Origin: Clostridium sp. AF15-31
GTDB lineage: Bacteria; Bacillota; Clostridia; Lachnospirales; Lachnospiraceae
Reading direction: 5' to 3'
NCBI RefSeq assembly: GCF_003461625.1
Contig: NZ_QTXL01000003.1
Coordinates: 62,001-126,000, forward strand
Length of the DNA: 64,000 nucleotides
The notes below the pieces were generated by a model, which had not been told where the DNA came from, did not search any database, and saw only the letters and a program-made list of their open reading frames with translations. Below, piece after piece: positions 22,223-41,200 of this stretch. The position numbers and the translations under genes were made by a program. The first letter of the stretch is position 1. Each line of letters opens with the position of its first letter.

Positions 22223-22236
22223 TATTCTCTTCTTTA

Positions 22237-23758: not shown

Positions 23759-23771
23759 TCTTTATTTTTTA

Positions 23772-23797
23772 GAAAACCTTTGAGGTTTTCTTTTTTT
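23772..23797 (+). terminator. Terminator after tRNA-Leu
   Basis: GAAAACC pairs with GGTTTTC over a five-base loop, followed by seven T. It lies 13 bases after the tRNA. Confidence 0.85.
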
Positions 23798-23803
23798 ATG
23801 CAC

Positions 23804-24073
23804 AAAATCCCTGATACAAAGTATTTATATAATTATAATAAAACACTTACATGTATATATCTTTATGAAGCAGACCTTTTTACTCTGTATAACTTCGAAC
23901 TAACCTCGGCGAGCCTCGCTAAGGTCTCAGTTACAAACGTCGGTCCTTAACGATTCATCGCAAGATGAAGAGTTTAGTACCGCTACGTTTGAAATAGAAC
24001 GAAAGTGTTCTGCGGAATAAATGGTATATACCTGTAAGTGTTTTGTTGTTAATATACTTGTATCAGGGATTTT
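23804..24073 (+). ncRNA. Structured repeat element, copy A (candidate novel RNA)
   Basis: The ends are complementary over roughly 45-50 bp: AAAATCCCTGATAC at 23804 pairs with GTATCAGGGATTTT ending at 24073, and AAACACTTACA pairs further in. The core (about 23861-24024) has GCAGA 23870-23874 with TCTGC 24009-24013, and CAAACGT 23934-23940 with ACGTTTG 23985-23991 beside a CU bulge. Inward come CGGT with ACCG, then CUUAAC with GUUUAG, then GA facing GA, then hairpin TTCATC-GCAA-GATGAA capped by a GNRA loop. An extra hairpin (about 23894-23926) is unique to this copy. The pairing rules recur with different bases in copies B and C. Copy A lies between the tRNA-Leu terminator and the convergent gene ending at 24080. 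No promoter of its own is visible. Confidence 0.7.
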
Positions 24074-24079
24074 ACTTTC

Positions 24080-24385
24080 TCAGATTTTTATCATATTGGT
24101 AAGCTTCTTTTCTACGTCTTCTAACAGATGTGCCTTAAATGCACTGTAGTACTCATGTGTAAACTGTGTATAAAGGAATTTGTTCCACAGGTTACTGCAA
24201 TATGTACTGTCAAAATCATAGTAAGAGTCTGTGTACATCATTCCGTTACTGTATCTGGTTACATCCAGATATGGCTCTTTTCCTGCGTAATTTAATCTCA
24301 TTACAAGATTCTTCTGTTCGCTGCAGCATGCGAATGTCTCCAAGAACATCTTCATCTGCTCTCTTGTTACTCGTTCTACAAACAT
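24080..24385 (-). CDS. Small hypothetical protein
   Basis: I do not recognise this 101-residue soluble protein. It has an N-terminal VTREQMKMFLETFACC, several aromatic-rich segments (YSNGMMYTDSYYDFDSTY) and a helical, charged C-terminus (AHLLEDVEKKLTNMIKI). No signal peptide or membrane helix is seen. A good ribosome site (GGAGG, ten bases before ATG) and a promoter at 24433-24462 support it as a real single gene. Its stop codon is six bases from structured element A, whose long stem could serve as its transcript end. Confidence 0.7.
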   Translation of the reverse strand: MFVERVTREQMKMFLETFACCSEQKNLVMRLNYAGKEPYLDVTRYSNGMMYTDSYYDFDSTYCSNLWNKFLYTQFTHEYYSAFKAHLLEDVEKKLTNMIKI

Positions 24386-24432
24386 AATATGTCACCCTCC
24401 ATGTCCCATAAATTAGCTCAATGTACAGTTCT

Positions 24433-24462
24433 ATTATAGTATGAACAGGACAACTCTGTAAA
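24433..24462 (-). promoter_or_regulatory. Promoter of the small hypothetical gene
   Basis: TTTACA and TATAAT on the minus strand are 18 bases apart, about 50 bases before the start codon at 24385. Confidence 0.6.
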
Positions 24463-24542
24463 GGCAATTATGTCAATGTCCGCCTTTTATTTATGATCTT
24501 TAAAATAACGGATCACTTGGCCGGGCAAACGTTCCGATAACG

Positions 24543-24590
24543 CAAAAACAGACCATAACCATCTTCTTCCGAAAATCATCATGATCTGTT
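24543..24590 (-). terminator. Terminator of the infC-rpmI-rplT operon
   Basis: AACAGATCAT (24590-24581) pairs with ATGGTCTGTT (24556-24547), with one G-U pair, across an inner imperfect helix, and is followed by UUUUU on minus. It lies 20 bases after rplT. Confidence 0.8.
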
Positions 24591-24609
24591 TTTATCTGCT
24601 TATATTAAA

Positions 24610-24966
24610 TTAAGCAAGCTTTTCCTTTGCAACAGCAACAAGCTTAGCAAATCCTTCCGGATCACTGATAGCCATCTCTGAAAGCATCTTTCTGTTGATG
24701 TCTACACTTGCAAGCTTTAAGCCGTGCATTAATTTGCTGTATGAAATATCATTCATTCTTGCAGCAGCATTAATACGAGCGATCCATAACTGTCTGAATT
24801 CTCTCTTTCTCTGCTTTCTGCCAGCATATGAACTTGTTAAAGCTCTCATAACTGACTGCTTTGCTACTCTATACTGCTTTGATCTAGCTCCTCTGTAACC
24901 CTTAGCCAGCTTAAGTGTTCTGTTATGTTTTTTCTTAGCGCCAACGCCGCCTTTTACTCTTGCCAT
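24610..24966 (-). CDS. rplT: 50S ribosomal protein L20
   Basis: This 118-residue, very basic protein has the family start [20 protein letters not shown] and the helical core ([21 protein letters not shown]). It binds 23S rRNA early in 50S assembly and, in Firmicutes, represses its own operon by binding the leader mRNA. It is the last gene of infC-rpmI-rplT, 21 bases after rpmI. Confidence 0.98.
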
Positions 24967-24987
24967 TCTCTAGTTCCTCCTGATTTA

Positions 24988-25185
24988 TTAGATATAAGGT
25001 AAAATCTTCTTCATTACCTTTTCATTTGTTGAATCCGTCATTGTTAACTTTCTAAGATTTCTCTTTCTCTTAGTTGTCTTCTTTGTTAAGATATGACTCT
25101 TGTAAGCCTTGCTTCTCTTAAGGCCGCCGTTAGCTGTTTTCTTGAAACGCTTAGCTGCTGCTCTTTTTGTCTTTAATTTAGCCAT
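24988..25185 (-). CDS. rpmI: 50S ribosomal protein L35
   Basis: This 65-residue basic protein starts [20 protein letters not shown], the L35 signature, and has normal length. It lies between infC and rplT in the standard order and is a structural component of the 50S subunit. GGAGG lies upstream of the ATG. Confidence 0.98.
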
Positions 25186-25222
25186 GTGTGTATTTCCTCC
25201 TTAATATATGTCATATTGTAAA

Positions 25223-25729
25223 TTAACGTTTTTCAGTTAAAAACATTATCATACTTCTTCCTTCAAACTTGGCAGGCTTATCGATAACTGCGATGTCTGA
25301 AAGCTTCTCAGCAAATTCATCAAGAATGCCCTTTGTCTGTTCTACATGGGCAAGCTCTCTACCTCTGAATCGAAGCGTAACCTTTACTTTATCGCCATGT
25401 GTCAGGAACTTTCTTGCCTGATTTACTTTTGTATTCAAGTCGTTAGTATCAATGTTTGGAGATAAACGAACTTCCTTGATCTCCATTGTCTTCTGTTTCT
25501 TTCTGGCTTCTTTCTCCTTACGAGCAAGCTCATAACGGTACTTACCATAATCAATAATCTTGCATACAGGTGGTTTTGCCTGTGGAGCGATCTTAACCAG
25601 ATCAAGCTCTGCTTCCTTTGCAAGCTTCAGTGCATCTCTGGAGGACATAATTCCGATCACCTGACCATCCTCGCCGATCACGCGCACTTCTCTGTCTCTA
25701 ATCTGTTCGTTAATCATTAATTCGCTAAT
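25223..25729 (-). CDS. infC: Translation initiation factor IF-3, probable AUU start
   Basis: IF-3 prevents subunit joining and proofreads the initiator codon. The N-domain (INEQIRDREVRVIGEDGQVIG) and C-domain (KEVRLSPNIDTNDLNTK, KVTLRFRGRELAH) are both present. The first in-frame ATG is at 25717, but GGAGG (25743-25739) is 21 bases from it and only nine bases from an in-frame ATT at 25729. ATT therefore fits as start, adding four residues (168 in total). AUU starts on infC are a known autoregulatory feature, because IF-3 rejects non-standard start codons. The upstream leader carries an attenuator. Confidence 0.93.
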   Translation of the reverse strand: MSELMINEQIRDREVRVIGEDGQVIGIMSSRDALKLAKEAELDLVKIAPQAKPPVCKIIDYGKYRYELARKEKEARKKQKTMEIKEVRLSPNIDTNDLNTKVNQARKFLTHGDKVKVTLRFRGRELAHVEQTKGILDEFAEKLSDIAVIDKPAKFEGRSMIMFLTEKR

Positions 25730-25898
25730 GACTTTTTACCTCCATTGCATAAAAAATAGTGGACAGCGCAAACCATCCACTATTATATATAAGTACATAT
25801 TATAATCTACTTAGATATGAACCCAAGTCACTGTTCTTCGTGCTAAGGTGAGAGTGGATACTCTGCTTTCTTGTCTGTCTCTGCTAAACAGCTTCTAT
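25730..25898 (-). promoter_or_regulatory. infC leader with attenuator (L20-leader type)
   Basis: Between the promoter (25899-25927) and infC lies a leader of about 165 bases. Its 3' part contains an intrinsic terminator: AATAGTGGA (25784-25776) pairs with TCCACTATT (25763-25755), followed by TTTTT. Terminator structures in this position are regulated by L20 binding in Firmicutes. I infer the L20 leader type from position; the upstream anti-terminator fold was not verified base by base. Confidence 0.75.
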
Positions 25899-25927
25899 AG
25901 GTTAGCACATACGTGTGCATATGTCAA
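25899..25927 (-). promoter_or_regulatory. infC operon promoter
   Basis: TTGACA (25927-25922) and TAACCT (25904-25899) are spaced by 17 bases on the minus strand, right after the ppk gene. The spacer holds the palindrome GCACACGTATGTGC. Confidence 0.65.
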
Positions 25928-25977
25928 GAATTTTTTTACTGTATCCAGCAACTTTTTTCGTTATATTTAGCAACTTT

Positions 25978-28107
25978 TTAATGCTCGCTCTCTTCCGCTT
26001 CGATCGGGATAAATACCCGGTCATGAGAGATTGCCGCATCTGCATCCTCCGGTTTTGCAGAACGCTTACGGGCTTCTTCCGCGAAGTACATCTGGGAATC
26101 CAGTTTTACCTTACCGCGAAGGTCCTGCTTCTCGTAACTGCCATCCGGCTGCATGATGTGCGCCTTTAAAGTATCAGCAAGCTGGATCTTTAAGATGTCC
26201 TTGATTCGTTTCTTCAGATCAGGATCTTCTACCGGGAAGGTGATCTCGACACGCTTGTCAAGGTTTCTCGGCATCCAGTCTGCACTGCCCATATAGATAT
26301 CTTCAAATCCATCATTAAAGAAATAGAAGATTCTGGAATGTTCCAGGAAATTACCAACGATCGAACGAACCGATATGTTCTCGCTGAGTCCCGGCACACC
26401 TGCTTTGATACAGCAGATACCACGGACGATCAGGTCGATCTTAACACCAGCAGCCGATGCATCATATAAGGCTTCCATCACCTTCGGATCACAAAGAGAA
26501 TTCATCTTGGCAATGATCCGTGCCTTCTTACCCTGTCTGGCATTTTCCGCTTCACGGTTAATAAGCATCAGGAATTTATCCTTTAACCAGATTGGTGCAA
26601 CCGCCAGTTTGTTCCATTTTCCTGGTTCTGAATATCCAGACAGCATATTAAATACTGCTGTCGCATCCTCACCGATCGGATCCGAACAGGTCAGAAGTCC
26701 CATATCTGTATATAACTTTGCTGTCTGATCGTTATAGTTACCGGTACCAAGATGTACATAGCGCTTGATACCATCTTCTTCTCTTCTGACAACCAGCGCG
26801 ATCTTGGAATGTGTCTTAAGTCCGACCAGACCATAGATAACATGACAGCCGGCTTTCTCAAGCTTTTTCGCCCATGCAATATTGTTTTCCTCATCGAATC
26901 TTGCCTTTAACTCAACCAGAACAGTTACCTGCTTGCCATTCTCCGCAGCCTGCTCTAACGCTGCTATGATCGGTGAATTGCCGCTGACACGATATAAGGT
27001 CTGCTTGATCGCAAGAACATTTGGATCGACTGCTGCCTGACGAATAAATTCAATAACCGGTGTGAACTCATAATATGGATGGAACAACAGGCGGTCATGC
27101 TTCTTAATCTTATCAAATATGTTACTGTAGTCGCCATTTGAAAATGCCGGCTGCGGAACATATTTCTCATATTTCAGATGATCAAAGCCCGGCAGGCCAT
27201 TTACTTTCATAAGGAAGGTAAGGTCAAGCGGTCCGTTTATCTTATATACAACACGATCAACCACATCCAGATGCTTCTTTAATTCTTTTAACAGCTTCTT
27301 ATCCATCGTGTCTTCTACTTCCAGACGGATAACCTCGCCCCACTGGCGCTGCTTTAACTGCTTCTCGATCTCCTTTAACAGATCGGCTGTCTCTTCCTCA
27401 TCAATTGAGAAATCCGCATTACGCATAATACGATATGGATGTGCACATACGATATCATAGCTTAAGAACAGCTTATCCAGATTCTTCTCGATTACTTCTT
27501 CAAGCAGGATGATCTCTGTCATGCCCTGTCGCTCGGATGGCAGAATGATCACTCTTGGAAGTACAGATGGAACCTGAACGGTCGCGATATCTGTAACATC
27601 TTTCTTCTTATCATAGATCAGCGCACCGATATTTAAAGATTTATTTCTTACAAGAGGAAACGGTCTGGAAGAATCCACTGCCATCGGTGTTAATACCGGA
27701 TAGATATCCCGTTCGAATAATTTATCTACATATCTGGACTGTTCCGGTGTCAGATCTTCATAATGTCTGACGATCTTCAGTCCATTTGCCTCTAATAACG
27801 GAACCAGAGAACGATTATAGGTCTGATACTGATTCTTCATGAATTCCTTCGTTGCAGGGATCAGCTCATCAAGCTGTTCTTCCGGTGTCATTCCTGCGAT
27901 ATCCTTCTTCGTATATCCCGCATTCTTCATATCCTTTAAGGATGCGATACGCACCATAAAAAACTCATCCAGATTGGATGCTGTGATGCTTAGGAACTTG
28001 ATCCGTTCAAATATCGGAATATTCTTATCCTTCGCTTCACTCAGGCATCTTTTATCAAATTCCAGCCAGGACAGTTCCCGGTTGTAAAATAAATTCTTAT
28101 CACTCAT
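25978..28107 (-). CDS. ppk1: Polyphosphate kinase 1
   Basis: This 709-residue enzyme polymerises the terminal phosphate of ATP into polyphosphate, reversibly. The N-terminal region (MSDKNLFYNRELSWLEFDKR), the active-site stretch KQTLYRVSGNSPII near 368 and the autophosphorylated His433 in LKTHSKIALVV are present. A second conserved region (HSRIFYFFNDG) follows near 575. Length is normal. The start codon follows the ppx stop codon directly, with GGAGGGG as ribosome site, so the two are one transcriptional and translational unit. This pairs synthesis with degradation of polyphosphate. Confidence 0.97.
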   Translation of the reverse strand: MSDKNLFYNRELSWLEFDKRCLSEAKDKNIPIFERIKFLSITASNLDEFFMVRIASLKDMKNAGYTKKDIAGMTPEEQLDELIPATKEFMKNQYQTYNRSLVPLLEANGLKIVRHYEDLTPEQSRYVDKLFERDIYPVLTPMAVDSSRPFPLVRNKSLNIGALIYDKKKDVTDIATVQVPSVLPRVIILPSERQGMTEIILLEEVIEKNLDKLFLSYDIVCAHPYRIMRNADFSIDEEETADLLKEIEKQLKQRQWGEVIRLEVEDTMDKKLLKELKKHLDVVDRVVYKINGPLDLTFLMKVNGLPGFDHLKYEKYVPQPAFSNGDYSNIFDKIKKHDRLLFHPYYEFTPVIEFIRQAAVDPNVLAIKQTLYRVSGNSPIIAALEQAAENGKQVTVLVELKARFDEENNIAWAKKLEKAGCHVIYGLVGLKTHSKIALVVRREEDGIKRYVHLGTGNYNDQTAKLYTDMGLLTCSDPIGEDATAVFNMLSGYSEPGKWNKLAVAPIWLKDKFLMLINREAENARQGKKARIIAKMNSLCDPKVMEALYDASAAGVKIDLIVRGICCIKAGVPGLSENISVRSIVGNFLEHSRIFYFFNDGFEDIYMGSADWMPRNLDKRVEITFPVEDPDLKKRIKDILKIQLADTLKAHIMQPDGSYEKQDLRGKVKLDSQMYFAEEARKRSAKPEDADAAISHDRVFIPIEAEESEH

Positions 28108-29643
28108 TTATATGCCCCTCCTTTGTTTCAATACTACTTTTACACCATAGACCTTTTCAAATAAGATATTATTCGTTTTAAACATGCCTGCTTCAAGTGT
28201 AATATCCTCCAGCGTATCTGTATAGATCACCAGTGTATTGTCATGTAATGAAATCCTAAGATTTGTAATCTTCTGTTTATAGCTCTTATCAAGCACATCA
28301 GCCAGTCGAAGGATAGCGGTAAGCTTGGCCACTTTCATATAATCTGCCGATCCGATCCGCCCGGATGCCCTTAATTCCGACGGAAGATAAAATCCATTAT
28401 AATAAACCGCATTTGCGATCTCCTCTCTCTCTTTATGAGAAAGTCCTAAAATCTCTGTCGCCATCACGATATGATAAGAGATCAGGGATACATCCTTCAT
28501 ATTTACAAATTTACCACAGTTATGCAGGATCGCCGCGATCTGTAACTGCAACCGTTCCCGTTTACCAAGTCCGTGTAATTTTCGTATGCTGTCAAATATT
28601 GCAAGTGCATTATCCGATACATTCTGGACATGCGCACGATTTACTTTATATTTCTTTGCAATTGTATTCACAGATGCAAGAATATCCTGATCAAAATTCT
28701 TGTCCATCAGAAAGGTTCCCTGCTTATCCATATAGTCAGCAATAATGCCATCACAGAAGATCACATTCGGAGTCAGGATCTCCTCTGCCCTGGAATTATC
28801 CAGAAATGACTGATAAATAATCGCCATCGGAAGCATCAGGGTGGCACGCTCATATGGAATACCATACCGTTCCGCCAGATCTTCCGGTTTTATGTCAACT
28901 ACCCGTTTATAGAGAATGCGGAATTGTTCTCTCGATATACTGTTCGCAATCGAAAGCTCCGGACCAACTTTTTTCAGGTTGTTGATACCATCACCAATTG
29001 CAATAATACTCTTAATATCTTTATCATTTAAAAACAGATTTCTGAATTCTATGATCGCATTTGATGCGTACTCTTCCATCAGTGTTTCAAGATCTACCGT
29101 ATCGGAACCGAACCGGGTCAGATAATCACGGATTCGGACTGCACCGATTGGAAGATTCTGTGTCTGTACCAGATTTCTTCTGTCAAAGATCGAAATCTGT
29201 AAGCTTCCGGCTCCGATATCAAGCAATGCATTATTCTTATGGGTTGCCACATCCACATCCATCCCGGTTGCCACGAATGCTTTATAATTCATAAAACGTT
29301 GTTCTGAATTACTGAGTATCTGCACATCAAAATCCGTACATATCTTAATTCTCTCAATGATCATAGAAGCATTCTCCGCTTCTCTGACCGCACTGGATGC
29401 ATATGCCCTGTAATCAGATACATCATATTCCTTCATCTTTCTCCGGAATTTAATCAACGTGTCACACAGCTTATTCAAATTATTTTCTTCGATATATCCT
29501 TTATTATAAGTATCACTTCCAAGCTCAATGATCGTTTTTACGGTATCAAGCTCCCTGGCACCCTTTCTTGGTGTGATCTCGCAGATCTTCATTGATATCT
29601 CATTAGAACCTACATTGATCGCGGCAAATGTCTTTCCTGCCAT
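28108..29643 (-). CDS. ppx: Exopolyphosphatase / guanosine pentaphosphatase family (Ppx/GppA)
   Basis: The protein (about 511 residues) removes terminal phosphates from polyphosphate or pppGpp. The N-terminal actin-like phosphatase has the phosphate-binding loop FAAINVGSNEISMKI and a second loop NALLDIGAGSLQISIF. The C-terminal half has an HD-type domain (LQIAAILHNCGKFVNM). I chose the ATG at 29643 (MAGKTFAAINV), with GAGG upstream. A GTG four codons earlier (29655) is possible. Note GSNE and GAGSLQ instead of the common GSNS and GGGS, small departures in the active loops. It is followed immediately by ppk and preceded by pheA after 32 bases. Confidence 0.92.
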   Translation of the reverse strand: MAGKTFAAINVGSNEISMKICEITPRKGARELDTVKTIIELGSDTYNKGYIEENNLNKLCDTLIKFRRKMKEYDVSDYRAYASSAVREAENASMIIERIKICTDFDVQILSNSEQRFMNYKAFVATGMDVDVATHKNNALLDIGAGSLQISIFDRRNLVQTQNLPIGAVRIRDYLTRFGSDTVDLETLMEEYASNAIIEFRNLFLNDKDIKSIIAIGDGINNLKKVGPELSIANSISREQFRILYKRVVDIKPEDLAERYGIPYERATLMLPMAIIYQSFLDNSRAEEILTPNVIFCDGIIADYMDKQGTFLMDKNFDQDILASVNTIAKKYKVNRAHVQNVSDNALAIFDSIRKLHGLGKRERLQLQIAAILHNCGKFVNMKDVSLISYHIVMATEILGLSHKEREEIANAVYYNGFYLPSELRASGRIGSADYMKVAKLTAILRLADVLDKSYKQKITNLRISLHDNTLVIYTDTLEDITLEAGMFKTNNILFEKVYGVKVVLKQRRGI

Positions 29644-29675
29644 ACTTTCATACACCTCACTTCTTTTTTACACCC

Positions 29676-30665
29676 CTAATATGTACCGATCAGACGAAAA
29701 TCCATCGCATCTTCACAGATTCCCTGTAATGCATGTCTTGTTCTTGAATCTAACAGACTGCCCTCCATTGTAACAAAAAAGGCATATTCCCATTTTCTAC
29801 CGGTAAGCGGTCTCGATTCGATGCTTGTCATATTAATTCCGTTCAGATTTATATGGCTCAATATATTGTAAAGTGTACCACTTTCATCCGGTAAGGAAAA
29901 GCGGATACTTATATTTTCAGCCTTTTCCACAAAGATTTTCTGTTTTGACAGGATGATAAAACGTGTCGTATTGTTGTCATTGTTCACAATGTCTTTTGCA
30001 AGGATCTGAAGTCCATAAAGCTCTGCTGCAAGCTCGCTTGCAATCGCTGCCTGTGTCTTATCTCCTTCTTCAATGACCTTGACCGCCGCTACTGCCGTAT
30101 TTGCAACACTGCACTGCTTCCACGGCTTCCGGCTCAGATAATTCGTGCACTGAAGCAAACCCTGTGTGTGTGAATATACAGTTTTGATCCGGGAAAGGTC
30201 ACTGCCCGGCACACCCATTAATGCATGTGCTACATGAACCTCTTCTTCGCCGACGATGGTCACATCATTATTTCCCACCATGTCATAGATTCCATTTACA
30301 AATCCGGCTGAAGAATTCTCGATTGGAAGTACACCATAGTCTGCCTTACCGTTCTTCACCATCTCGATCACATCTCCGAAATCCGGTACATTGATATTCT
30401 GGATCTTCTTTCCAAAGAACCTGAACATTGCCTGTTGGCTGTATGCTCCCGGAACCCCCTGATAACAGACAACAGTGTCCTTATCTACTTCTAATTTCTT
30501 CACACAGGTAAAATCCTTCATTCCATCACAAACAACCTGAGAGCTGTCATTCGTCAGCTTCTTATTCTCATCTGCCATACCTGCCAGAATCTTATCTCTT
30601 GTCTTTACAAGAGAAGCAATCTGTGCTTCTACTGTCCGTAAATCTTCCATATTATATTTATCCAT
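29676..30665 (-). CDS. pheA: Prephenate dehydratase with reduced N-terminal chorismate-mutase-like segment
   Basis: The enzyme converts prephenate to phenylpyruvate for phenylalanine synthesis. The dehydratase domain spans about 65-245 (CYQGVPGAYSQQA, DYGVLPIENSSAG, the catalytic-site TRFIILSKQ). The ACT domain follows with SGTLYNILSHINL and the Phe-binding ESRP (SIESRPL). The first 55 residues resemble only the first helix of a chorismate mutase (EDLRTVEAQIASLVKTRD), with about half of that domain missing. The mutase activity is therefore probably lost or supplied elsewhere. Of 329 residues, the two main domains are complete. Confidence 0.92.
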   Translation of the reverse strand: MDKYNMEDLRTVEAQIASLVKTRDKILAGMADENKKLTNDSSQVVCDGMKDFTCVKKLEVDKDTVVCYQGVPGAYSQQAMFRFFGKKIQNINVPDFGDVIEMVKNGKADYGVLPIENSSAGFVNGIYDMVGNNDVTIVGEEEVHVAHALMGVPGSDLSRIKTVYSHTQGLLQCTNYLSRKPWKQCSVANTAVAAVKVIEEGDKTQAAIASELAAELYGLQILAKDIVNNDNNTTRFIILSKQKIFVEKAENISIRFSLPDESGTLYNILSHINLNGINMTSIESRPLTGRKWEYAFFVTMEGSLLDSRTRHALQGICEDAMDFRLIGTY

Positions 30666-30777
30666 TGTTTTATCTGCTCCAAATACAAGACATTCCGCCT
30701 GCAGTCTTTCTATAATATTAATGTTGTCTTTAAAACTTTGCCAATACGATCAAATGCGCATGCTCATTTTCCCCGGT

Positions 30778-31602: not shown

Positions 31603-31658
31603 ACGACACCTCCTGTCTGTTCTCCCTTTTACCAGATCAAACCTCATCTTTTTTATTT

Positions 31659-31695
31659 ATGATTCAATGAAATTTTCTTCTGTTCATTGAATCAT
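31659..31695. repeat. Intercistronic inverted repeat between folP and folBK
   Basis: ATGATTCAATGA (31659-31670) pairs with TCATTGAATCAT (31684-31695) over a 13-base loop. No U-run follows on either strand, so it is unlikely to be an intrinsic terminator. A processing or mRNA-stability role is possible. Confidence 0.6.
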
Positions 31696-31728
31696 TAAGT
31701 ACTGCTTCATTTTCTCTTATTGACTGTA

Positions 31729-33020: not shown

Positions 33021-33053
33021 TTCTTCTCTGTAGTCCTCTCCTGGTTTATCGTA

Positions 33054-34328
33054 CTACTTTATCCGCGGTATCAGCGGTCCTATAAAAGATAATGAACCAA
33101 ATACCACGATCACCGGCTCCGTCATTTCTTGTGCCAGTGTTTCCGCCTGTCTCTGTGCAGTAAACACATCCTCTGCCGTATCCACCGACTTTCCGTATGA
33201 ACGATAGCAGTCTGCCAGAATCTTCTTATCAAGCGCCCGTGGATTATCCGGTGTTACCGTTATGATAAAGCTTGCAAACGGCGCCATGATATCCACCATT
33301 TTCTCATACTCTTTATCTGCAAGAACACCACAGATATAGATCAACGGCCGCCCTGTAAAATATGCCCGGATATTCTCTCTGAGGCTTCTCCATCCGCCTT
33401 CATTATGCGCTCCATCGATATAAGTCAAAGGCACATCCTTAATCTTCTGGAATCTGCCCTCCCACACCGTCTCTTTTAATCCGTTCTTTATATTCACATT
33501 TTTTAAATCATACTGTTTTTTCAAACAATTACAGACCTCAATTGCGGTTATACTGTTATAGATCTGATAGATTCCGGGAATCCCCAGCTCATACTCCTGT
33601 CCTTTATAACAAAACCTGCTTCCATGCAGATTTTCTGCTATGACCTGCAGTTGGTCGGTATCTGCCATGATCGGTTCTATCTGCATTTTATCACATTTTT
33701 TTAGCCATATCTGTCTCATCTCATCCTGCATCGGATATGCCACACACGGAACCTGTTCCCGAAGGATCCCCATCTTCTGTTCCAGAATCTCCTGCAATGT
33801 ATCACCAAGAAACTGCATATGATCTCTGCTGATGCTTGCAAGCACGGTACAAAGCGGCTGTTTCACCACATTTGTCGCATCGTTCTTTCCACCCATTCCG
33901 GTTTCCAGTAACACGATATCGACCTTTTTCTGCACAAAATACAGAAATGCTACCGCAGTCTCAAGCTCAAATGCGGTCGGTATCGGAAGCCCGGCTTCCT
34001 CCATATCCTCGCAAACCGGGATCACGGTCTCCATGATCCGTGCAAATTCCGATTCTTTCATATAATGTCCATTTATCTGAAATCGTTCCAGATATGTAAA
34101 GATCGTTGGGGATATATAGCGTCCGACAACATACCCTGCATCCTCCAGAATATGCCCGACAAATGCGAATATAGAACCTTTTCCGTTTGTTCCGGCTATA
34201 TGAACGACAGGAACCCGATCCTGTGGATTCCCCAGTCTTAAAAGTAGTTCTTTCACTGTCTCCGTTCCGTAGACACTGCCTCTTTTTCCCGCTTCTTTCA
34301 TATATAGATATGCTTCTTCGTATGTCAT
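33054..34328 (-). CDS. folC: Folylpolyglutamate synthase / dihydrofolate synthase
   Basis: This 424-residue Mur-ligase-fold enzyme adds glutamate to dihydropteroate and folates. The P-loop HIAGTNGKGSIFAF is at about 43-56. A conserved LLETGMGGKNDATNVV follows, with ISRDHMQFLGDTL in the middle and DGAHNEGG in the C-terminal half. It is the first gene of the folate operon (folC-HD-folP-folBK), and an A/T-rich promoter-like region lies between it and the deacetylase stop. Confidence 0.95.
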   Translation of the reverse strand: MTYEEAYLYMKEAGKRGSVYGTETVKELLLRLGNPQDRVPVVHIAGTNGKGSIFAFVGHILEDAGYVVGRYISPTIFTYLERFQINGHYMKESEFARIMETVIPVCEDMEEAGLPIPTAFELETAVAFLYFVQKKVDIVLLETGMGGKNDATNVVKQPLCTVLASISRDHMQFLGDTLQEILEQKMGILREQVPCVAYPMQDEMRQIWLKKCDKMQIEPIMADTDQLQVIAENLHGSRFCYKGQEYELGIPGIYQIYNSITAIEVCNCLKKQYDLKNVNIKNGLKETVWEGRFQKIKDVPLTYIDGAHNEGGWRSLRENIRAYFTGRPLIYICGVLADKEYEKMVDIMAPFASFIITVTPDNPRALDKKILADCYRSYGKSVDTAEDVFTAQRQAETLAQEMTEPVIVVFGSLSFIGPLIPRIK

Positions 34329-34379
34329 TCTTTAGCCTCTTTACTTGATTATGTATAGATAAAATATAATGAACTATTT

Positions 34380-35210
34380 CTAATGTGTTCTATGTTGGAT
34401 ATGCGGTGTATCATCATCAATCGGAAGGATCTCATATCCATGTTCCTCTAATTGTTCAATCAGTGACGGCAGAGATTCCACTGTTTCATGACAGCAATCC
34501 AGATCATGCATCAATATGATCGTGTCATCATAATTTAATGCATCCTTCAATATATTCTTTACAAGCTGATCCGGTGTCTGTCCGGCCATCACCGCATCAT
34601 TATTCAATGCATTCCAGTCAAAATACGTCAATCCTGCCGAGTCCAGATAGTCGATCAGGTCATTCACCGGTACCTGCGTAACACGGTTTGAACTTCCACC
34701 CGGGAACCTGTAATACCGGCAGTCCACTCCTGTAACATCATACAATAATTTTCTTAATTCCTCAACATCATTCACGAAATTGTCATAGCTTGCATAAATC
34801 GTACTATATTCATGGGAATATGAATGGATCGCCAGTGTATGCCCTTCCTCCACAATCCGTTTGTACATGGGATAGTATCGTTCATTTCTTCCTATTACAA
34901 AGAACGTAGCTTTAACATTATGCTCTTTTAAAATATCAAGGATCTCTCCGGTCTGATCGGATGGACCGTCGTCAAAGGTCAGATATGCCCGTTTTCGTGT
35001 CACTGTTTTTGATGACATGGCAGCCACGCTGTCTGAATCCGGAAATTTATCTTTCTGATCGATAATGAATTTTCCTGTAAACAATAAAAATACAATCAGT
35101 GCAGCAACCAGAATTATATTTTGCCAGTAAGCTGCAAAAAATCGGTCACACTCTTTTAACGCTTCGTTGTCATTTATGTGGGATAAAACTGTTTTTATTT
35201 TTTTCCTCAT
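34380..35210 (-). CDS. Membrane-anchored polysaccharide deacetylase (CE4/NodB)
   Basis: This 276-residue protein removes N-acetyl groups from a cell-wall or extracellular glycan. A single N-terminal membrane anchor (about residues 30-50) places the catalytic domain outside. The NodB motifs are intact: TFDDGP (78-83), metal-binding HSYSH (129-133), RFPGGS (168-173), FDWNALNND near 200, and ILMHD near the end. Peptidoglycan or another N-acetylated glycan is the likely substrate; the sequence does not say which. It is monocistronic and ends 51 bases before folC. Confidence 0.92.
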   Translation of the reverse strand: MRKKIKTVLSHINDNEALKECDRFFAAYWQNIILVAALIVFLLFTGKFIIDQKDKFPDSDSVAAMSSKTVTRKRAYLTFDDGPSDQTGEILDILKEHNVKATFFVIGRNERYYPMYKRIVEEGHTLAIHSYSHEYSTIYASYDNFVNDVEELRKLLYDVTGVDCRYYRFPGGSSNRVTQVPVNDLIDYLDSAGLTYFDWNALNNDAVMAGQTPDQLVKNILKDALNYDDTIILMHDLDCCHETVESLPSLIEQLEEHGYEILPIDDDTPHIQHRTH

Positions 35211-35327
35211 TTTTATAAGATTTTCCGTTTTTTATACATCTATACTCCCGATCTGATATTTTTATTCGAATAAAAAACAGGAAATGTCAGATACTATTTT
35301 TATCAAATGGAAAAGGAGAATAAAAAA

Positions 35328-35843
35328 ATGAAAAAATCATTTCTTTTATGTGCATGTCTGGTTGTCATGGCATTTACCCTGACCGCATGCGGCGAGAAAA
35401 ATAACCCTGAAACAACCGGTACAACAACCGGGAGCAGTACAGAGGACAGCAGTTCCACAGAAAACGGGAATAATTCAAACGGTACAGGTTCTGTAGGTAA
35501 GGATCTCGGTAACATGATCGACGATGCCGGAGATGTTGTAGATGATGCAGCAAAGGATGTATCCGATGCTCTGACCGGAAACTATGATACTTATGACCAT
35601 GCTTATAAGTATTTTATGGATCAGATTCCCGGCGACTCCAAGAACTATGAAGTTCGCAATAACGACAAGGATCTTACTGATTATAACTCCGGCAGCATGG
35701 GGTACCACTTTGAGCTTCATGACACCAGAAAATCTGACAACTCTAAGGTTGGTGACTTCTATGTAGATTCTACCTCCGGCAAGGTCTACAAGGCAGCCTC
35801 CGGCTCCGGCGTGTCCGAATTTGACTTCTCGACCTTGAAGTAG
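35328..35843 (+). CDS. Small secreted lipoprotein of unknown function
   Basis: Starting at 35328 (AAAAGGAG nine bases upstream), the protein is about 171 residues with a lipoprotein signal (MKKSFLLCACLVV, lipobox LTAC). A Thr/Ser/Asn-rich linker follows, then DAGDVVDDAAKDVSDALTG, then a compact C-terminal domain (about 95-171) with a VGDFYVDSTSGKVYKAASG segment that could bind a ligand or fold as a small beta domain. I do not recognise the family. Upstream in-frame codons from 35307 lack a site. It is followed by structured element B. Confidence 0.75.
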   Translation: MKKSFLLCACLVVMAFTLTACGEKNNPETTGTTTGSSTEDSSSTENGNNSNGTGSVGKDLGNMIDDAGDVVDDAAKDVSDALTGNYDTYDHAYKYFMDQIPGDSKNYEVRNNDKDLTDYNSGSMGYHFELHDTRKSDNSKVGDFYVDSTSGKVYKAASGSGVSEFDFSTLK

Positions 35844-35875
35844 ACCCCTTTTTGTAAAAAGGACGATAACCATAT

Positions 35876-36042
35876 TCAGACAAACAGAACTGGTCGATGG
35901 TTATACTATTATGTAGCAAGCCTATCCGAATGTCGGTCCTTGATGAGCTGTATAAACAGCGAATCTAGTACCGCTACATGAGGATAGAGTGCAAACGTCT
36001 TGCGTAATAATAGGTATAACCATCGGCCAGTTCGTCCGTTTT
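35876..36042 (+). ncRNA. Structured repeat element, copy B (candidate novel RNA)
   Basis: The outer arms (about 35887-35906 and 36014-36033, GAACTGG with CCAGTTC and so on) form a stem of roughly 25 bp with small bulges. Inward come TATTAT with AATAATA, GCAAG (35916-35920) with CTTGC (35999-36003), CTATCC with GGATAG, GA facing GA, AUGU with ACAU plus a CU bulge, CGGU with ACCG, CUU-GAU with AUC-UAG, GA facing GA, and hairpin GCTGT-ATAA-ACAGC. Every helix matches copies A and C in position but not in sequence. It overlaps the last bases of the minus gene ending at 36041 and follows the lipoprotein gene by 33 bases. Confidence 0.7.
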
Positions 36043-36319
36043 AAGATTTATCGTCCTCTTTTTTGACAATCTCATGGGTGATGGGATTTACGACTACGCC
36101 CATCTCCTCTGCCATTTTGAGGTAGACATCCATCTCATGGTCTTTTCTCTGCTGTTCGCGTTTACGGATAGCTTTTGACCGGATGATCTCCACGATACCG
36201 AATACAATCATACAGCATCCAAAAAAGATCATCACTGGACTTAAGGTTCCTACACAGCCTTTTACCAGACAGATTGTTCCGATCCCGATCATGACGATTC
36301 CCATTACCAGATTAAACAT
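36041..36319 (-). CDS. Small membrane protein, two helices
   Basis: This 92-residue protein has two N-terminal hydrophobic helices (MFNLVMGIVMIGIGTICLVK and LSPVMIFFGCCMIVFGIVE) and a basic, helical cytoplasmic tail ending in KKEDDKS. I do not recognise it. Its start codon directly follows the stop of the preceding 120-residue gene, so the two are coupled. The stop codon lies in the 3' end of structured element B. Confidence 0.65.
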   Translation of the reverse strand: MFNLVMGIVMIGIGTICLVKGCVGTLSPVMIFFGCCMIVFGIVEIIRSKAIRKREQQRKDHEMDVYLKMAEEMGVVVNPITHEIVKKEDDKS

Positions 36320-36682
36320 TTAACTTTCCTTTCCTGTATAAAATGCATCTTTTCCTGCTTTTTCCATCATTTTGTCATACTGATCGTACATTCTCTGCAC
36401 GCTGTTTTCGAGTAAATAATAATGCCGGATATATGGAATCAGTAAGACAAACAGTGCTGCCGCTAACAGTAAGATCTGTATTTTTTCCGTCACCACAAAG
36501 GTCACACAGCAGCCTACCGTAAGGATCGCAAATAAGATTGTTACAAGAAGATGGATCAGACGCTCATGCATGAAAAATTCAATCTGCACCAGATGTCTCC
36601 TCATCTCCTCATCAAAATCAACATCATCCCTTACAAGCAGCTTATCTACATATGCCAGATATTCTTTGATTCGTTTTGCCAT
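36320..36682 (-). CDS. Small membrane protein, two helices
   Basis: This 120-residue protein has a charged N-terminal third (EYLAYVDKLLVRDDVDFDEE), then two central helices (LLVTILFAILTVGCCVTFVV and a second near 85-100) and a basic helical tail. The family was not recognised. It is coupled to the 92-residue membrane protein and preceded by the 193-residue gene after 10 bases, so the three form an operon. Confidence 0.65.
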   Translation of the reverse strand: MAKRIKEYLAYVDKLLVRDDVDFDEEMRRHLVQIEFFMHERLIHLLVTILFAILTVGCCVTFVVTEKIQILLLAAALFVLLIPYIRHYYLLENSVQRMYDQYDKMMEKAGKDAFYTGKES

Positions 36683-36692
36683 ATTCGATCAC

Positions 36693-37274
36693 CTAACCCA
36701 TGTTTGCCTTATTCAGGAAATGATTCCATCCGGCAATTACCTTATCATAATAAAAGCTTACTATATAAGAATCTTCGTCAACATCAATGATCATCTGATA
36801 ACACTTCTTATCTGCTTCCGGCTTACCACCATAGAAGATATAGTTCTCTTTGAACTTTCCAAATATCTTTTCATACTCATCTTCCGCAAGTTTCTGATCC
36901 GGAACTTCTTCTACCAGATTATCATTTGCATCATAATACTTATGACCTTCCAACAATACCGCTTCAATGACCGGATTCTTAAACCGTATCTCCATCTGAT
37001 CGGCATATTTGTCTGTATAGTATTCGTTCTGAGAATTGTTATCCTTTACAACCGCACCTTCTACATAGAATTCCAGCCATCTTGCCCGAAGCCCTTTAAG
37101 GGAAGTTTCTGCATCTCTGACACTCCCTGCCGCGTCGTCTGCTTTCACTTTTTCAACACTCTCTGCTGCTTCGCCATCTGTTTCCACTTCTCCGACTCCG
37201 ACAAGCTTCATTTCTTTGATCTGTGCATCCCGTAACTGAATGGTTTCTATCTCATTTGTACTCTTAAATTTCAT
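36693..37274 (-). CDS. Hypothetical soluble protein, first of a three-gene operon
   Basis: This 193-residue protein has no signal peptide or membrane helix. It starts MKFKSTNEIETIQLRDAQIK, passes through an Ala/Glu/Asp-rich linker (about 30-60) and has a mixed C-terminal domain (FYVEGAVVKDN, RFKNPVIEAVLLEGHKYY, MIIDVDEDSYIVSFYYDKV). No function can be given. Two small membrane proteins follow, suggesting a membrane-associated complex (inference). Confidence 0.6.
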   Translation of the reverse strand: MKFKSTNEIETIQLRDAQIKEMKLVGVGEVETDGEAAESVEKVKADDAAGSVRDAETSLKGLRARWLEFYVEGAVVKDNNSQNEYYTDKYADQMEIRFKNPVIEAVLLEGHKYYDANDNLVEEVPDQKLAEDEYEKIFGKFKENYIFYGGKPEADKKCYQMIIDVDEDSYIVSFYYDKVIAGWNHFLNKANMG

Positions 37275-37357
37275 ATTTTATACACCGTCCTGAACAATTT
37301 TAACTGCCTATAACTATAAACTGTTTTTCATGGCTTGTAAATGGAATTTAAGACAGA

Positions 37358-37391
37358 AAAATAAGAGGAACCCGTCTTACAGGCTCCTCCT
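37358..37391 (-). terminator. Terminator of the amt-glnK operon
   Basis: AGGAGGAGCC pairs with GGTTCCTCTT (with G-U pairs) on the minus strand, followed by ATTTTT. It lies just past the glnK stop. Confidence 0.8.
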
Positions 37392-37397
37392 GTTTGT

Positions 37398-37745
37398 CTA
37401 ATTCAGCGCATCATAGCCGCTTTCCTTCGTACGAATCTTCATGGCGGTGCGGATCTCATAACTGAAGATCTTGCCGTCTCCGACTTCTCCGGTGTATGCT
37501 GCCTTCTGGATTGCATCGATCGTCTTCTTCTCCCATTCTTCCGAAGAAACTACGATCTCAAATTTGATCTTCGGCTGCATAACGACATCAACCTCTGTAC
37601 CACGTACAAGCTTCTTATATCCTCGCTGTGCACCGCATCCCATTACCTGAGATACTGTAATACCATTTACATCAATCGCATTCAGTGCTTCTTTTACATC
37701 TTCAAATACTTCTTCTCGCACGATTGCTTCTATCTTGATCATCAT
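37398..37745 (-). CDS. glnK: P-II nitrogen regulatory protein next to the ammonium transporter
   Basis: This 115-residue trimeric signalling protein senses 2-oxoglutarate, ATP and ADP. The conserved end AAYTGEVGDGKIFSYEI and the N-terminal IKIEAIVREEVFEDVKEAL fit the family. The T-loop reads GYKKLVRGTEVDVVMQPK. The tyrosine that is uridylylated in proteobacteria (in ELYRGAEY) is Val here, so that modification is not possible. The gene lies 26 bases after amt and almost surely blocks or regulates the Amt channel through its T-loop. Confidence 0.92.
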   Translation of the reverse strand: MMIKIEAIVREEVFEDVKEALNAIDVNGITVSQVMGCGAQRGYKKLVRGTEVDVVMQPKIKFEIVVSSEEWEKKTIDAIQKAAYTGEVGDGKIFSYEIRTAMKIRTKESGYDALN

Positions 37746-37770
37746 ATTCTCCTACTCCTTTCCGCAACTT

Positions 37771-39015
37771 CTATGAATCCAATCCGTTAAATGTCGGATA
37801 TGCACTTTCTCCCTGTTCTGCAAGATCCAGACCGATCTTTTCTTCCTTATCCGATACACGAAGCGGCGTGATCAGTCTTACAAGTCCAAGACAGATAAAC
37901 GTTCCGACCACTGCAACTGCTATTGTCACAACGATACCGATCAACTGTGCAACAAAAAGGTGATAGTCTCCGAAGAACAGTCCATCCCATCTGGCAACGC
38001 TGTTGATCGAACTCTTACCAAATAATCCGGTCGCGATACCACCCCAGACACCACCGATACCATGACATCCAAAAGCATCGAGTGCATCATCTATTTTCAA
38101 TTTCTTCTTTAATAAAGTAATCATACCACAACAAATCGGACTTACAAGTGCACCGATAATAAATGCAGACCAGATTGGAACAAAGCCTGCTCCCGGTGTG
38201 ATCGCAACCAGTCCGACAACAAGACCGGTCGAAGCACCAACCAAGGTTGGCTTTCCGTCTTTTATCACATCGATCAGCATCCATGACATCATGGCACTCG
38301 CACTTGCGATCGCTGAGGTTAAGAATGCATGAGCTGCAAGACCATTTGCTCCGAGGGCACTTCCTGCATTGAAGCCGAACCATCCGAACCAAAGGATAAA
38401 TGCACCAAGAGCAACGAATGGAATGTTATGAACACGATAAGCAGTATTCTCATAACCTTTTCGTCTGCCAAGGATGATCGCAAATACCAATGCGCTTACA
38501 CCGGAGCTGATATGTACGACATTTCCGCCTGCAAAATCGACGGAACCGATCTCTGCAAGGAAACCGCCCTGTCCCCATACCATATGTGCCATCGGGTAGT
38601 AAACCAGAATCGACCAGAACATGATAAAGAAGAATAAAGCCTTAAACTTTACACGTCCGACTAATGATCCTGTGATCAGTGCCGGCGTGATCATTGCAAA
38701 CATCATCTGGAATGCAATATATACAAAATGCGGAATATTGTCTGCATACGGTCCGGCCTCATTCATGGATATGCCATTTAACGCAAACCATCTGAGATCA
38801 CCAATGATTCCTCCGTGATTTCCCCCAAAGGAAAGGGAGTAACCAAATAATATCCACATTACAACCGAAAGTCCCATAATAAAAGTACATGCCATCATCG
38901 TATTAACGACATTTTTCCTTCGCACCATTCCACCATAAAAGAAAGCAAGTCCCGGTGTCATAAAAAATACCAATGCTGTACAGATCAGCATAAAACCAGT
39001 ATCACCAGTATTCAT
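37771..39015 (-). CDS. amt: Ammonium transporter (Amt/Mep/Rh)
   Basis: The protein (about 414 residues) forms a trimeric ammonium channel with 11 membrane helices. Signatures are GLAFFYGGMVRRKNVVNTMM, the DFAGGNVVHISSG region and the HGIGGVWGG near the end, which includes one of the paired pore histidines. I chose the ATG at 39015 because GGAGG lies eight bases upstream. An open in-frame extension to 39072 is untranslated leader, since it reads through the G-rich leader hairpin. Paired with glnK. Confidence 0.95.
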   Translation of the reverse strand: MNTGDTGFMLICTALVFFMTPGLAFFYGGMVRRKNVVNTMMACTFIMGLSVVMWILFGYSLSFGGNHGGIIGDLRWFALNGISMNEAGPYADNIPHFVYIAFQMMFAMITPALITGSLVGRVKFKALFFFIMFWSILVYYPMAHMVWGQGGFLAEIGSVDFAGGNVVHISSGVSALVFAIILGRRKGYENTAYRVHNIPFVALGAFILWFGWFGFNAGSALGANGLAAHAFLTSAIASASAMMSWMLIDVIKDGKPTLVGASTGLVVGLVAITPGAGFVPIWSAFIIGALVSPICCGMITLLKKKLKIDDALDAFGCHGIGGVWGGIATGLFGKSSINSVARWDGLFFGDYHLFVAQLIGIVVTIAVAVVGTFICLGLVRLITPLRVSDKEEKIGLDLAEQGESAYPTFNGLDS

Positions 39016-39179
39016 AACTATTTCCTCCATTTTTTTCTGAAATTCTTTTTGAAATCTCCGGCAGGTGCGCATCCCCCGACAGGTTTCGCTTCACTTTTTT
39101 ACAAAATTCCATGGTACTTTTTTTGTAAAACAGAAAAGACGCCAATCGAACGTATCTCGTTCAACTGACGTCTTTGTCT
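39016..39179 (-). promoter_or_regulatory. Structured leader of amt with an early intrinsic terminator
   Basis: Transcription should start near 39179. A hairpin follows at once: 39174-39157 pairs with 39152-39135 over 18 bp, three of them G-U wobbles that pair only on minus, then CUUUUCUGUUUU. This is terminator-like and sits within the first 50 bases. The remaining leader (39134-39029) is G/C-rich, with CUGUCGG and CUGCCGG that can pair across GGGAUGCGCAC. A 36-codon reading frame (39112-39002, MEFCKKVKRNLSG...) overlaps the amt start out of frame, without a clear ribosome site. I found no match to known riboswitch motifs or to ANTAR dual-hexaloop sites. Confidence 0.6.
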
Positions 39180-39185
39180 GAAGAT

Positions 39186-39214
39186 ATACTAGCAGACCTG
39201 ATTTATTTTTTCAA
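39186..39214 (-). promoter_or_regulatory. amt-glnK promoter
   Basis: TTGAAA and TAGTAT on the minus strand are 17 bases apart, giving a transcription start near 39179. Confidence 0.75.
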
Positions 39215-39291
39215 GTATTTTTTACAAATCCTTTACCATTCTTTAGCCAGGACATAATTTTACCTGTTTTTCTAAAGCAGATCGTATTTGT

Positions 39292-39320
39292 TTGACTTTT
39301 TTCTCATATTACGCTATGAT
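39292..39320 (+). promoter_or_regulatory. putP promoter
   Basis: TTGACT and TATGAT are 17 bases apart. Transcription would start near 39327, about 75 bases before the start codon of putP. Confidence 0.75.
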
Positions 39321-39402
39321 TTTTTAGTTATGTATTCTATTACGAAATTTAACGATTTTGTCCATGTTATGCATACGCAATAAAAAATTGGAGGATATTT
39401 AA

Positions 39403-40938
39403 ATGTTTATGACAACTAACTTTTTCATCATGCTTGCAATCGTTGTCTACCTGGCGATCATGCTTGTGATCGGCTTTGTTTACAGCAAGCGTAACAACAG
39501 TACAGAAGATTTCTATCTTGGCGGCCGTAAGATGGGACCTCTCGTAACAGCCATGAGTGCTGAAGCAAGTGATATGTCAAGCTGGCTCCTGATGGGACTT
39601 CCGGGGGTTGCATATCTGTCCGGTATCTGCGATGCCGCATGGACTGCCATCGGTCTTGCCGTTGGTACATGGTTGAACTGGTTCTTCGTGTCCAGAAAAC
39701 TCAGACGTTATTCAAATAATATCGGCGCGATCACTGTGCCTGATTTCTTTGCAAAACGATTCCATGATAAGAATAATGTTATCACAGCACTTTCCGCTCT
39801 CGTTATCATTATCTTCTTCATCCCTTACACAGCATCTGGTTTTGCTGCCTGTGGTAAGCTGTTCAACAGCTTATTCGGTATCAATTATCAGGTTGCCATG
39901 ATGTTGTCCGCCCTGTTGATTGTTGGTTACACTATCACCGGTGGGTTCAATGCCGTATGTGTTACAGACCTTGTTCAGAGTATCGTTATGACCGGTGCAC
40001 TTGCGATCGTTCTGATCTATGGAATCTCAAGAGCAGGTGGTTGGACAGCCGTTATGGACAACGCAGCCGCCCTTCCGGGTTATCTGTCTCTGACATCTAC
40101 CTTTGATGTTGCCTCCGGTTCTGAAGTCAAATATAACTTTTTGACAATTTTCTCAACTGCTGCATGGGGACTCGGTTACTTTGGTATGCCTCATATTCTT
40201 GTCCGTTTCATGGCAATCGAGGATGAGAAAAAACTGGTACTTTCCCGCCGTATTGCCTCTGTATGGGTAGTGATCGCTATGACCGCAGGTGTTCTGATCG
40301 GTATTGTCGGTCTTGGTATGACCAAAGCCGGTGCACTCGACACTCTGACCGGTTCAAACAGTGAAACTATTATCGTTCGTATCGCAGGTATCATCAGCCA
40401 GCATAATGCATTAACTGCTCTTATCGCAGGTATCATCCTTGCCGGTATCCTTGCCGCTACGATGTCTACCGCAGACAGTCAGATGCTTGCTGCTGCATCC
40501 GGTGTTTCACAGAATATCGTACATGATTTCTTAAAGATCAAGATTTCCGAGAAGACAAATCTTCTGATCGCACGTTTAACAATTGTTGGTATTGCGATCG
40601 TAAGTATCTTCCTTGCAAGGAATCCTGACTCCAGTGTATTCAAGATCGTTTCCTTCGCATGGGCCGGCTTCGGCGGTGCATTTGGTGCTGTTGTGCTCTG
40701 TTCTTTATTCTGGAAGCGTTGTAATCTTGCAGGTGCGATCGCCGGTATCGTATCCGGTGGTGCTACCGTATTCATCTGGAAGTATCTGGTTCGTCCACTT
40801 GGAGGAATTCTTGATATCTACGAACTGCTTCCTGCATTTATCGTATCCCTGATCTTCATCATTGTGGTCAGCCTGCTTACAAAGGCTCCTGATGAAGAAA
40901 TCATCCGGGAGTTTGAAGCAGCCGGCAAGAAGGCGTAG
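39403..40938 (+). CDS. putP: Sodium:proline symporter, PutP
   Basis: This 511-residue solute:sodium symporter imports proline. The N-terminal helix, GGRKMGPLVTAMSAEASDMS and SSWLLMGLPGVAYLSG are the strong PutP signature, and about 13 membrane helices follow. The protein ends with a short cytoplasmic tail (EEIIREFEAAGKKA). GGAGG lies eight bases before the ATG. A clear promoter and terminator make it monocistronic. The high share of C-ending codons compared with neighbours suggests high expression. Confidence 0.95.
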   Translation: MFMTTNFFIMLAIVVYLAIMLVIGFVYSKRNNSTEDFYLGGRKMGPLVTAMSAEASDMSSWLLMGLPGVAYLSGICDAAWTAIGLAVGTWLNWFFVSRKLRRYSNNIGAITVPDFFAKRFHDKNNVITALSALVIIIFFIPYTASGFAACGKLFNSLFGINYQVAMMLSALLIVGYTITGGFNAVCVTDLVQSIVMTGALAIVLIYGISRAGGWTAVMDNAAALPGYLSLTSTFDVASGSEVKYNFLTIFSTAAWGLGYFGMPHILVRFMAIEDEKKLVLSRRIASVWVVIAMTAGVLIGIVGLGMTKAGALDTLTGSNSETIIVRIAGIISQHNALTALIAGIILAGILAATMSTADSQMLAAASGVSQNIVHDFLKIKISEKTNLLIARLTIVGIAIVSIFLARNPDSSVFKIVSFAWAGFGGAFGAVVLCSLFWKRCNLAGAIAGIVSGGATVFIWKYLVRPLGGILDIYELLPAFIVSLIFIIVVSLLTKAPDEEIIREFEAAGKKA

Positions 40939-40949
40939 GAATCCCTACG

Positions 40950-40990
40950 AAAAAGGAAACCGATATACATAGTATATCGGTTTCCTTTTT
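40950..40990 (+). terminator. putP terminator
   Basis: AAAAGGAAACCGATATAC is followed by ATA and a perfect complement ending in TTTTT, giving an 18-bp stem 13 bases past the stop codon. Confidence 0.9.
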
Positions 40991-41020
40991 CTTATGTATA
41001 TTTTGAAATAACTTACATTT

Positions 41021-41185
41021 CCAAAATTACGGCTCTGTTATAGTTCACATATTATTACGCAAGTCGTTTGCACTCTATTTCAACGCAACGGTGCTAAGCT
41101 CCTCGCCTATAAGGCGACTCACTAAGTACCGGCGTTGAAAAAGGCTTGCTTCATAATAGTGAATCTATAACAGAGCCGTAATTGG
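41021..41185 (-). ncRNA. Structured repeat element, copy C (candidate novel RNA)
   Basis: Read on minus, the ends pair for about 28 bp (CCAATTACGGCTCTG with CAGAGCCGTAATTTTGG), then TATTAT with ATAATA, GCAAG (41149-41145) with CTTGC (41063-41059), TTTCAACGC with GCGTTGAAA beside a UU bulge, CGGU with ACCG, CUU-AGU with GCU-UAG, GA facing GA, and hairpin TCGCC-TTATA-GGCGA. The segment GAAATAGAGTGCAAACG is nearly identical to copy B. It lies between the putP terminator and the promoter of the next gene, on the strand opposite to both. Confidence 0.7.
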
Positions 41186-41200
41186 ATAAAGAAAATAAAG

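Follow-up and report, generated by a model that had tools for sequence, protein, structure and literature searches.

A 64,000-nucleotide (nt) stretch of the Clostridium sp. AF15-31 genome (contig NZ_QTXL01000003.1, positions 62,001 to 126,000 of the forward strand; hereafter the window) carries three copies, A, B and C, of a structured element that apparently belongs to a large, undescribed family of small repeated elements. We favor, at a probability of about 0.62, the reading that this is a non-autonomous mobile family in which palindromic carriers bear, at their apex, a folded core that is conserved and RNA-like. The inner part would be a core of about 100 nt, one strand of which is predicted to fold into a rod and a GNRA hairpin that meet at a three-way junction, and the outer part would be a long palindrome, the carrier, whose sequence varies between lineages and often between copies. 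An earlier note made from the sequence of the window had named three possibilities, a structured RNA, a non-coding mobile element and a hairpin recognized by a protein; wide covariation, the lack of an Rfam 15 match above cut-off and target duplications in other genomes now support a structured mobile element.

Fold and covariation of the core

Element A (23804-24073, + strand) lies downstream of a tRNA-Leu gene and consists of a core (23854-24031, +, delimited by alignment) with long copy-specific arms. Element B (about 35860-36055 with its arms, +) sits between convergent genes and has an ortholog in the nearest genome, G001; its core (35900-36020, +) was delimited by a covariance model match and by comparison with G001. 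Element C (about 41005-41195 with its arms, - strand) is hairpin H2, an inverted repeat at 41025-41072 and 41136-41183, and its core (41043-41165, -) was placed by the same genome comparison. These are the three copies that the earlier note had located, and the complex fold it ascribed to all of them is recovered for A (-105.2 kcal/mol, z -11.5), B (-83.1 kcal/mol, z -9.2) and C (-80.8 kcal/mol, z -10.9), with none of 200 dinucleotide shuffles as good in each case. The arms are copy-specific yet self-complementary, as it had also claimed, forming inverted repeats of 37, 20 and 48 nt in A, B and C with 81%, 95% and 79% complementarity, respectively. The covariance model R1, built from the three window cores with A included, scores them at 134, 134 and 109 bits by construction, and its match to A spans 23854-24030.

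From the outside inward, the copy-specific arms (P1) are followed by a short internal loop, by the helix P2 (GCAAG/CUUGC or covarying forms) and by a three-way junction that gives off a rod (P3/P4) and a very small hairpin, P5. The rod is strongly conserved, reading CGGUACUUA-RY-GA ... GA-RY-UUAGUACCG, and encloses a variable apical hairpin; the GA/GA motif is replaced by a continuous apical helix in some copies from G001 and from a further genome, G211. P5 consists of two base pairs and a GNRA loop, and its pairs change from C-G to U-A and from G-C to A-U. It lies at 23999-24006 (+) in A, where it reads AC-GAAA-GU and corresponds to the covarying columns 243-254 of alignment A6 described below, and at 35989-35996 (+) in B and 41066-41073 (-) in C, where the same covarying columns read GU-GCAA-AC. 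It is thus P5, present in all three copies, and not the apical hairpin of A, that is the family-conserved GNRA hairpin. P5, an extra junction hairpin in A and an empty hairpin beside C, H1, are absent from the earlier note.

The extra junction hairpin of A is about 53 nt long (roughly 23880-23932). Among 93 model matches in G001, nine are 173-177 nt long, like A with this hairpin, and these lengths suggest a recurring subfamily, although length alone defines the comparison. The core of A has 83% identity over 179 nt to one G001 copy.

We then compiled alignment A6 from 100 sources, some of which gave no match at the cut-off: the window, 6 of 30 G001 loci, 20 of 27 loci from relatives and 73 of 80 contig loci. 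A6 has 112 distinct rows. Of its 4707 cells, 93.5% are paired, compared with 26-45% when the partners are slid, and 44 of 46 pairs change on both sides. The proposed partners reach a covariation score of 0.665, slid ones 0.041-0.101, and for five covariation measures none of 500 shuffles reaches the observed value of any. Scoring all column pairs blind to the structure gives 21 strongest pairs that are all proposed ones and places 41 of 44 proposed pairs in the top 60. A single antisense row was left out of this all-column scoring and of the G-U count below, and is included in the 93.5% figure and in a wider model, R2. The compensatory changes first listed from the three copies are borne out by the core alignment and a per-pair table, and covariation is extreme in this wide alignment as well.

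Counted on the strand proposed as sense, G-U cells number 145 and A-C cells 64, with ratios of 44:15 in the arms, 15:3 in P2 and 34:2 in the apical hairpin. This excess favors, on balance, that strand as the active one, either as RNA or as single-stranded DNA, and supports the earlier assignment of a sense strand overall but not in each segment. The core would be transcribed and work as RNA; most likely, the fold would act as a transcribed RNA recognized by a protein, because its unpaired motifs are conserved on one strand.

Distribution and carriers in other genomes

At gathering scores, Rfam 15 matched only tRNA in the whole window, and a permissive search with element A alone reached 22.2 bits at best against a cut-off of 39. 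A search with eight loci from other genomes returned no match covering the element, in agreement with the earlier remark that no family with this layout was known to its author. One of these searches gave a sub-threshold match to Clostridiales-1 RNA (RF01699), a hairpin RNA of gut Clostridiales, at L034 1233-1349 (40.9 vs 48 bits). This match differs from the element in that the two do not overlap (element match 1501-1620, about 150 nt away); it lies between a T-box leader and the element copy, and a weaker match occurs at L033 784-915. Full-text literature searches, which covered titles and the beginnings of abstracts, yielded no description of the family.

In G001, the 93 matches (E<=1, 150 of 186 candidates scored) were reduced to 86 places, and the seven rows left out of strand and cluster counts are antisense re-matches, partial matches and one weak full-length match. 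The deduplicated locus set counts one G001 locus (L062, about 17185) on both strands and includes the B orthologs of both the window and G001. Among 60 relatives, 15 match, all of them within the 36 from the same family, and none of the 24 from other families does. The wider model R2 matches 90 of 200 genera of the same family at E<=1e-4, and a phylum-wide draw gave 4 matches in 299, all four again in that family. As filters were strict and few candidates were scored per genome, the true numbers may be higher than these.

Scanning named genomes with a pattern gave at least 118 stretches. Among the matches listed there are 80 loci, 47 of them titled Lachnospiraceae and 8 Butyrivibrio, and further titles include Falcatimonas, Lachnoclostridium, Eubacteriaceae, one Anaerovibrio lipolyticus LB2005 and one Selenomonadaceae; these titles point to Lachnospiraceae as the family of the window. 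Three listed loci fall in metagenome bins titled Muribaculaceae (two, in one bin) or Bacteroides (one), titles that may be mislabelled. Viral contigs contained no stretch matching the pattern used, which detects one of the three window copies.

Marks of transposition come from G061, the genome of locus L089, in which we read 42 of about 125 copies. Its end sequences CAATGTCATTNNGTTAAG occur 124 and 132 times at no more than one mismatch (reversed control, 0), and 38 of the 42 copies are exactly 189 base pairs (bp) long. Target duplications of 9-10 bp flank 33 of the 42 (30 exact and 3 with one mismatch), and direct repeats of at least 9 nt are found in 24 of 37 copies versus 6% with the flanks swapped. 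Seven further copies (L104, L121, L122, L142, L201, L205 and L214) have palindromic flanks without duplication, with 11-12 of 12 bases matched, and the remaining two have neither. The palindromic flanks could reflect either the rebuilding of a hairpin on both sides of the element or its entry without duplication. Three 158-bp copies that have lost one strand of P1/P2 still have duplications, so the ends, and not an intact fold, seem to suffice for transposition.

The ends of the G061 elements match those of a DDE_Tnp_1 insertion sequence. There are 16 DDE_Tnp_1 places in this genome, and CAATGTCATT ends bracket 4 of them; at L220, a 436-residue DDE_Tnp_1 transposase (1267-2577), which we take to be IS4-like, lies between ends at 1068 and 2778. 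Another candidate for an autonomous partner, at L196 4791, was rejected: it is a remnant of one element end directly before a metabolic gene and not a transposase. This remnant could supply leader or promoter sequence to the gene, which presumably encodes a decarboxylase-like protein.

Other ends, AGGTAATTGCGAAACT, bracket 11 of the 16 loci read in G211, forming a miniature transposon of 204-208 bp with the core inside. Ten of these 11 match a loose core pattern, of which six were also folded and one also matched a stricter pattern. Direct repeats of 7-13 nt occur within 22 nt of the element in all 11, and reach at least 9 nt in 7 of 11, figures that stand without a shuffled control. A third outer end, GCGACATGGACTCATATG, is present in two copies from a Butyrivibrio bin, with variants in two more. 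The G061 and G211 end sets differ around the same core, indicating that two or more types of transposon carry it. Transposases would thus act in trans on the carrier ends in G061 and probably in G211, as judged from ends and duplications, and the core would be a separable, RNA-like passenger that may acquire a new carrier by inserting into a hairpin loop already in place. Its separability is supported by G001, which has no match, at up to one mismatch, to either G061- or G211-type ends.

Apparent core exchange, genomic context and alternative readings

Comparison of the window with G001 allows individual sites to be followed. The two are about 97% identical over 24062-64000 and 77-79% identical in aligned pieces from about 13548 to 23815. 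Element A lies at the junction of these segments and may therefore mark a recombination border; the corresponding site in G001 is likewise occupied by an element, whose arms and core both differ. Over 121 nt the core of B and its G001 ortholog show no difference, and beside this ortholog G001 has an extra element. As a side observation, about 60 bp of the window (37105-37165), within listed open reading frames, are missing from G001.

At the C locus, H1 (40949-40991, no strand assigned; a 20-bp stem with the 3-nt loop ATA) adjoins C and is empty in the window, and in G001 it contains a core. The core of C, in H2, has 98% identity over 114 nt to the core of G001 H1, whereas H2 of G001 contains another core, oriented the other way. 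The aligned sequences indicate that the locus underwent loss or gain, replacement and inversion of cores, in whichever order these happened, while the arms stayed. The carriers of the window lineage would be terminator-like hairpins 3′ of genes, which the module seems, at this one locus, to enter and leave. Four other genomes of the genus proved too diverged for an empty-site comparison with the one protein tried, the C-locus protein being 40-41% identical. A bolder form of the mobile reading, which we put forward only tentatively, is that the core is itself a new mobile unit, a parasite of about 100 nt and RNA-like character that would enter and leave the loops of hairpins of any sequence, in either orientation, and hitch-hike on unrelated carriers.

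Several observations weigh against the favored mobile family with its passenger core. Hairpin-to-hairpin exchange is based on one locus. Direct repeats of at least 9 nt occur in 3 of 65 G001 and window cases versus 1.6% with flanks swapped, and in 0 of 22 cases in a further genome, G021, so neither set has clear target duplications. Across genera, CAATGTCATT ends are found in 29 of 90 genomes with the element and 32 of 110 without it (p 0.65), and GTAATTGCGAAACTC ends in 29 of 90 and 26 of 110 (p 0.20). Ends of the insertion-sequence type thus do not track the element. In the conserved rod and in P3b, A-C cells outnumber G-U cells (22 vs 10 and 15 vs 11, respectively). The pairing in A6 is moreover inflated, since that alignment holds only sequences found by R1 and fitted to the R1 structure; despite this bias, the contrast to slid partners is very large.

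Genomic context bears on a different explanation, that the element is a host RNA family, either a small RNA or a 3′-end element, selected at each site and captured by transposons in a few genomes. Of the 91 aligned places, 2 lie inside an open reading frame and 6 at the edge of one, and most are intergenic. With genomes pooled, 44 of the 91 lie between convergent genes, often 3′ of genes, compared with 50 of 345 neighboring gene pairs counted across the window and the stretches from G001 (element-bearing gaps included). Relative to the nearest gene end within 150 nt, 40 of 50 copies in G001 and the window are antisense and 10 sense, and 10 of 19 are antisense in other genomes. Closely spaced pairs in G001 are arranged '-,+' in 10 of 15 cases and '+,-' in none, and the sole triple is '-,+,+'. 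The 23 G021 copies (L032, L046, L056 and L240-L259) retain the inner stem and the core together with the 5′ leader, and between conserved inner and outer stem parts their mid-stem is hypervariable but complementary by eye. Selection at each site would agree with these patterns and with the identity of the B core in the window and G001.

We consider a host RNA rather unlikely. In G061 there is no such preference, as 2 copies are convergent, 4 divergent and 12 tandem, with 7 antisense and 5 sense, and the mixed contig set has none either (9 convergent, 8 divergent and 45 tandem; 30 antisense and 25 sense). The orientation count for G021 is 8 antisense and 2 sense, and 14 have no gene end in reach. 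Under strict filters 110 of the 200 genera have no match, and the G061 copies are near-uniform in length and flanked by duplications. Apart from the question of a host RNA, promoter-like signals upstream of elements hardly exceed those in shuffles (8.9 vs 8.6), and a replication-strand bias in G001 is weak (p 0.01-0.05 depending on a terminus position chosen post hoc).

We regard as improbable a DNA-level element, in which a cruciform or single-stranded hairpin would acquire its compensatory changes through hairpin-templated repair and not through selection on RNA. Watson-Crick pairs do dominate, with G-U at about 3% (145 of 4706 cells), and arms of any sequence remain complementary. One H1 position has changed on both arms between the window and G001, palindromic flanks replace duplications in the 7 of 42 G061 copies described above, and G-T in single-stranded DNA could yield the same excess as G-U. 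However, G-U exceeds A-C in the arms, P2 and the apical hairpin at the ratios given above, and conserved unpaired positions (U-U, GA/GA and GNRA) suggest a function of one strand.

Ordinary bidirectional terminators or chance hairpins are a highly implausible account of the whole element, and one that is refuted for the core, which is conserved over about 100 nt, covaries and also lies within transposons, although it describes the arms of the window lineage fairly: these lie just 3′ of genes, with A-rich 5′ and T-rich 3′ flanks in G001 and the window, and 24 core-less hairpins (stem >=18 bp, loop <=10 nt), H1 included, are present in the 442 kilobases scanned. The identity of the arms with terminators, considered in the earlier note, thus applies in part in this lineage but does not extend to the core, which is an addition to the terminator and not part of it.

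Relation to known systems

The mobile family that we favor resembles miniature inverted-repeat transposable elements (MITEs), for which passages of the review PMC10969869 give QMITE2 of Coxiella as an example. Bacterial MITEs are described there as short, non-autonomous and intergenic, with inverted-repeat ends and target duplications, and their transcripts are predicted to form stable stem-loops. The G061 and G211 elements are likewise short and non-coding with inverted-repeat ends, and in the window and G001 only the palindrome is seen, although some G001 copies have about 150 nt in common, a portion of the arms among them. Unlike the MITEs in those passages, the present elements have a covarying core that is common to unrelated ends and also occurs without transposon ends.

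A second likeness, and the closest class that we met in print, is to MRSC-65-2, a mobile/repeat sequence candidate with a covarying stem and dozens of copies per genome, which passages of PMC11109978 presume to be selfish and place sometimes near transposases. As depicted there, MRSC-65-2 differs in having one long stem in which a UYCCGG repeat is conserved, whereas the present family has a three-way junction, a GNRA hairpin and a CUUARYGA/GARYUUAG rod. The same source counts 250 such candidates, and the present family may be an unnamed one among these. Repetitive extragenic palindromic (REP) elements, with their single-strand transposases (PMC6006769), offer a further comparison. Like the present elements, REP elements are palindromic, intergenic and present in many copies. 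They differ from the window lineage, in which no arm sequence is common to all copies.

The element described here is abundant and structured, occurs in 90 of the 200 genera sampled from one family and has no Rfam entry that we found. Features of transposons, of terminators and of structured RNA come together in this single object. If it is a host RNA, it would be an unstudied RNA whose copies number up to about a hundred in one genome, and the covariance model R2 is ready for annotation under either reading. If the core does move between hairpins, it would represent a transposition target and a mechanism with no clear precedent known to us.

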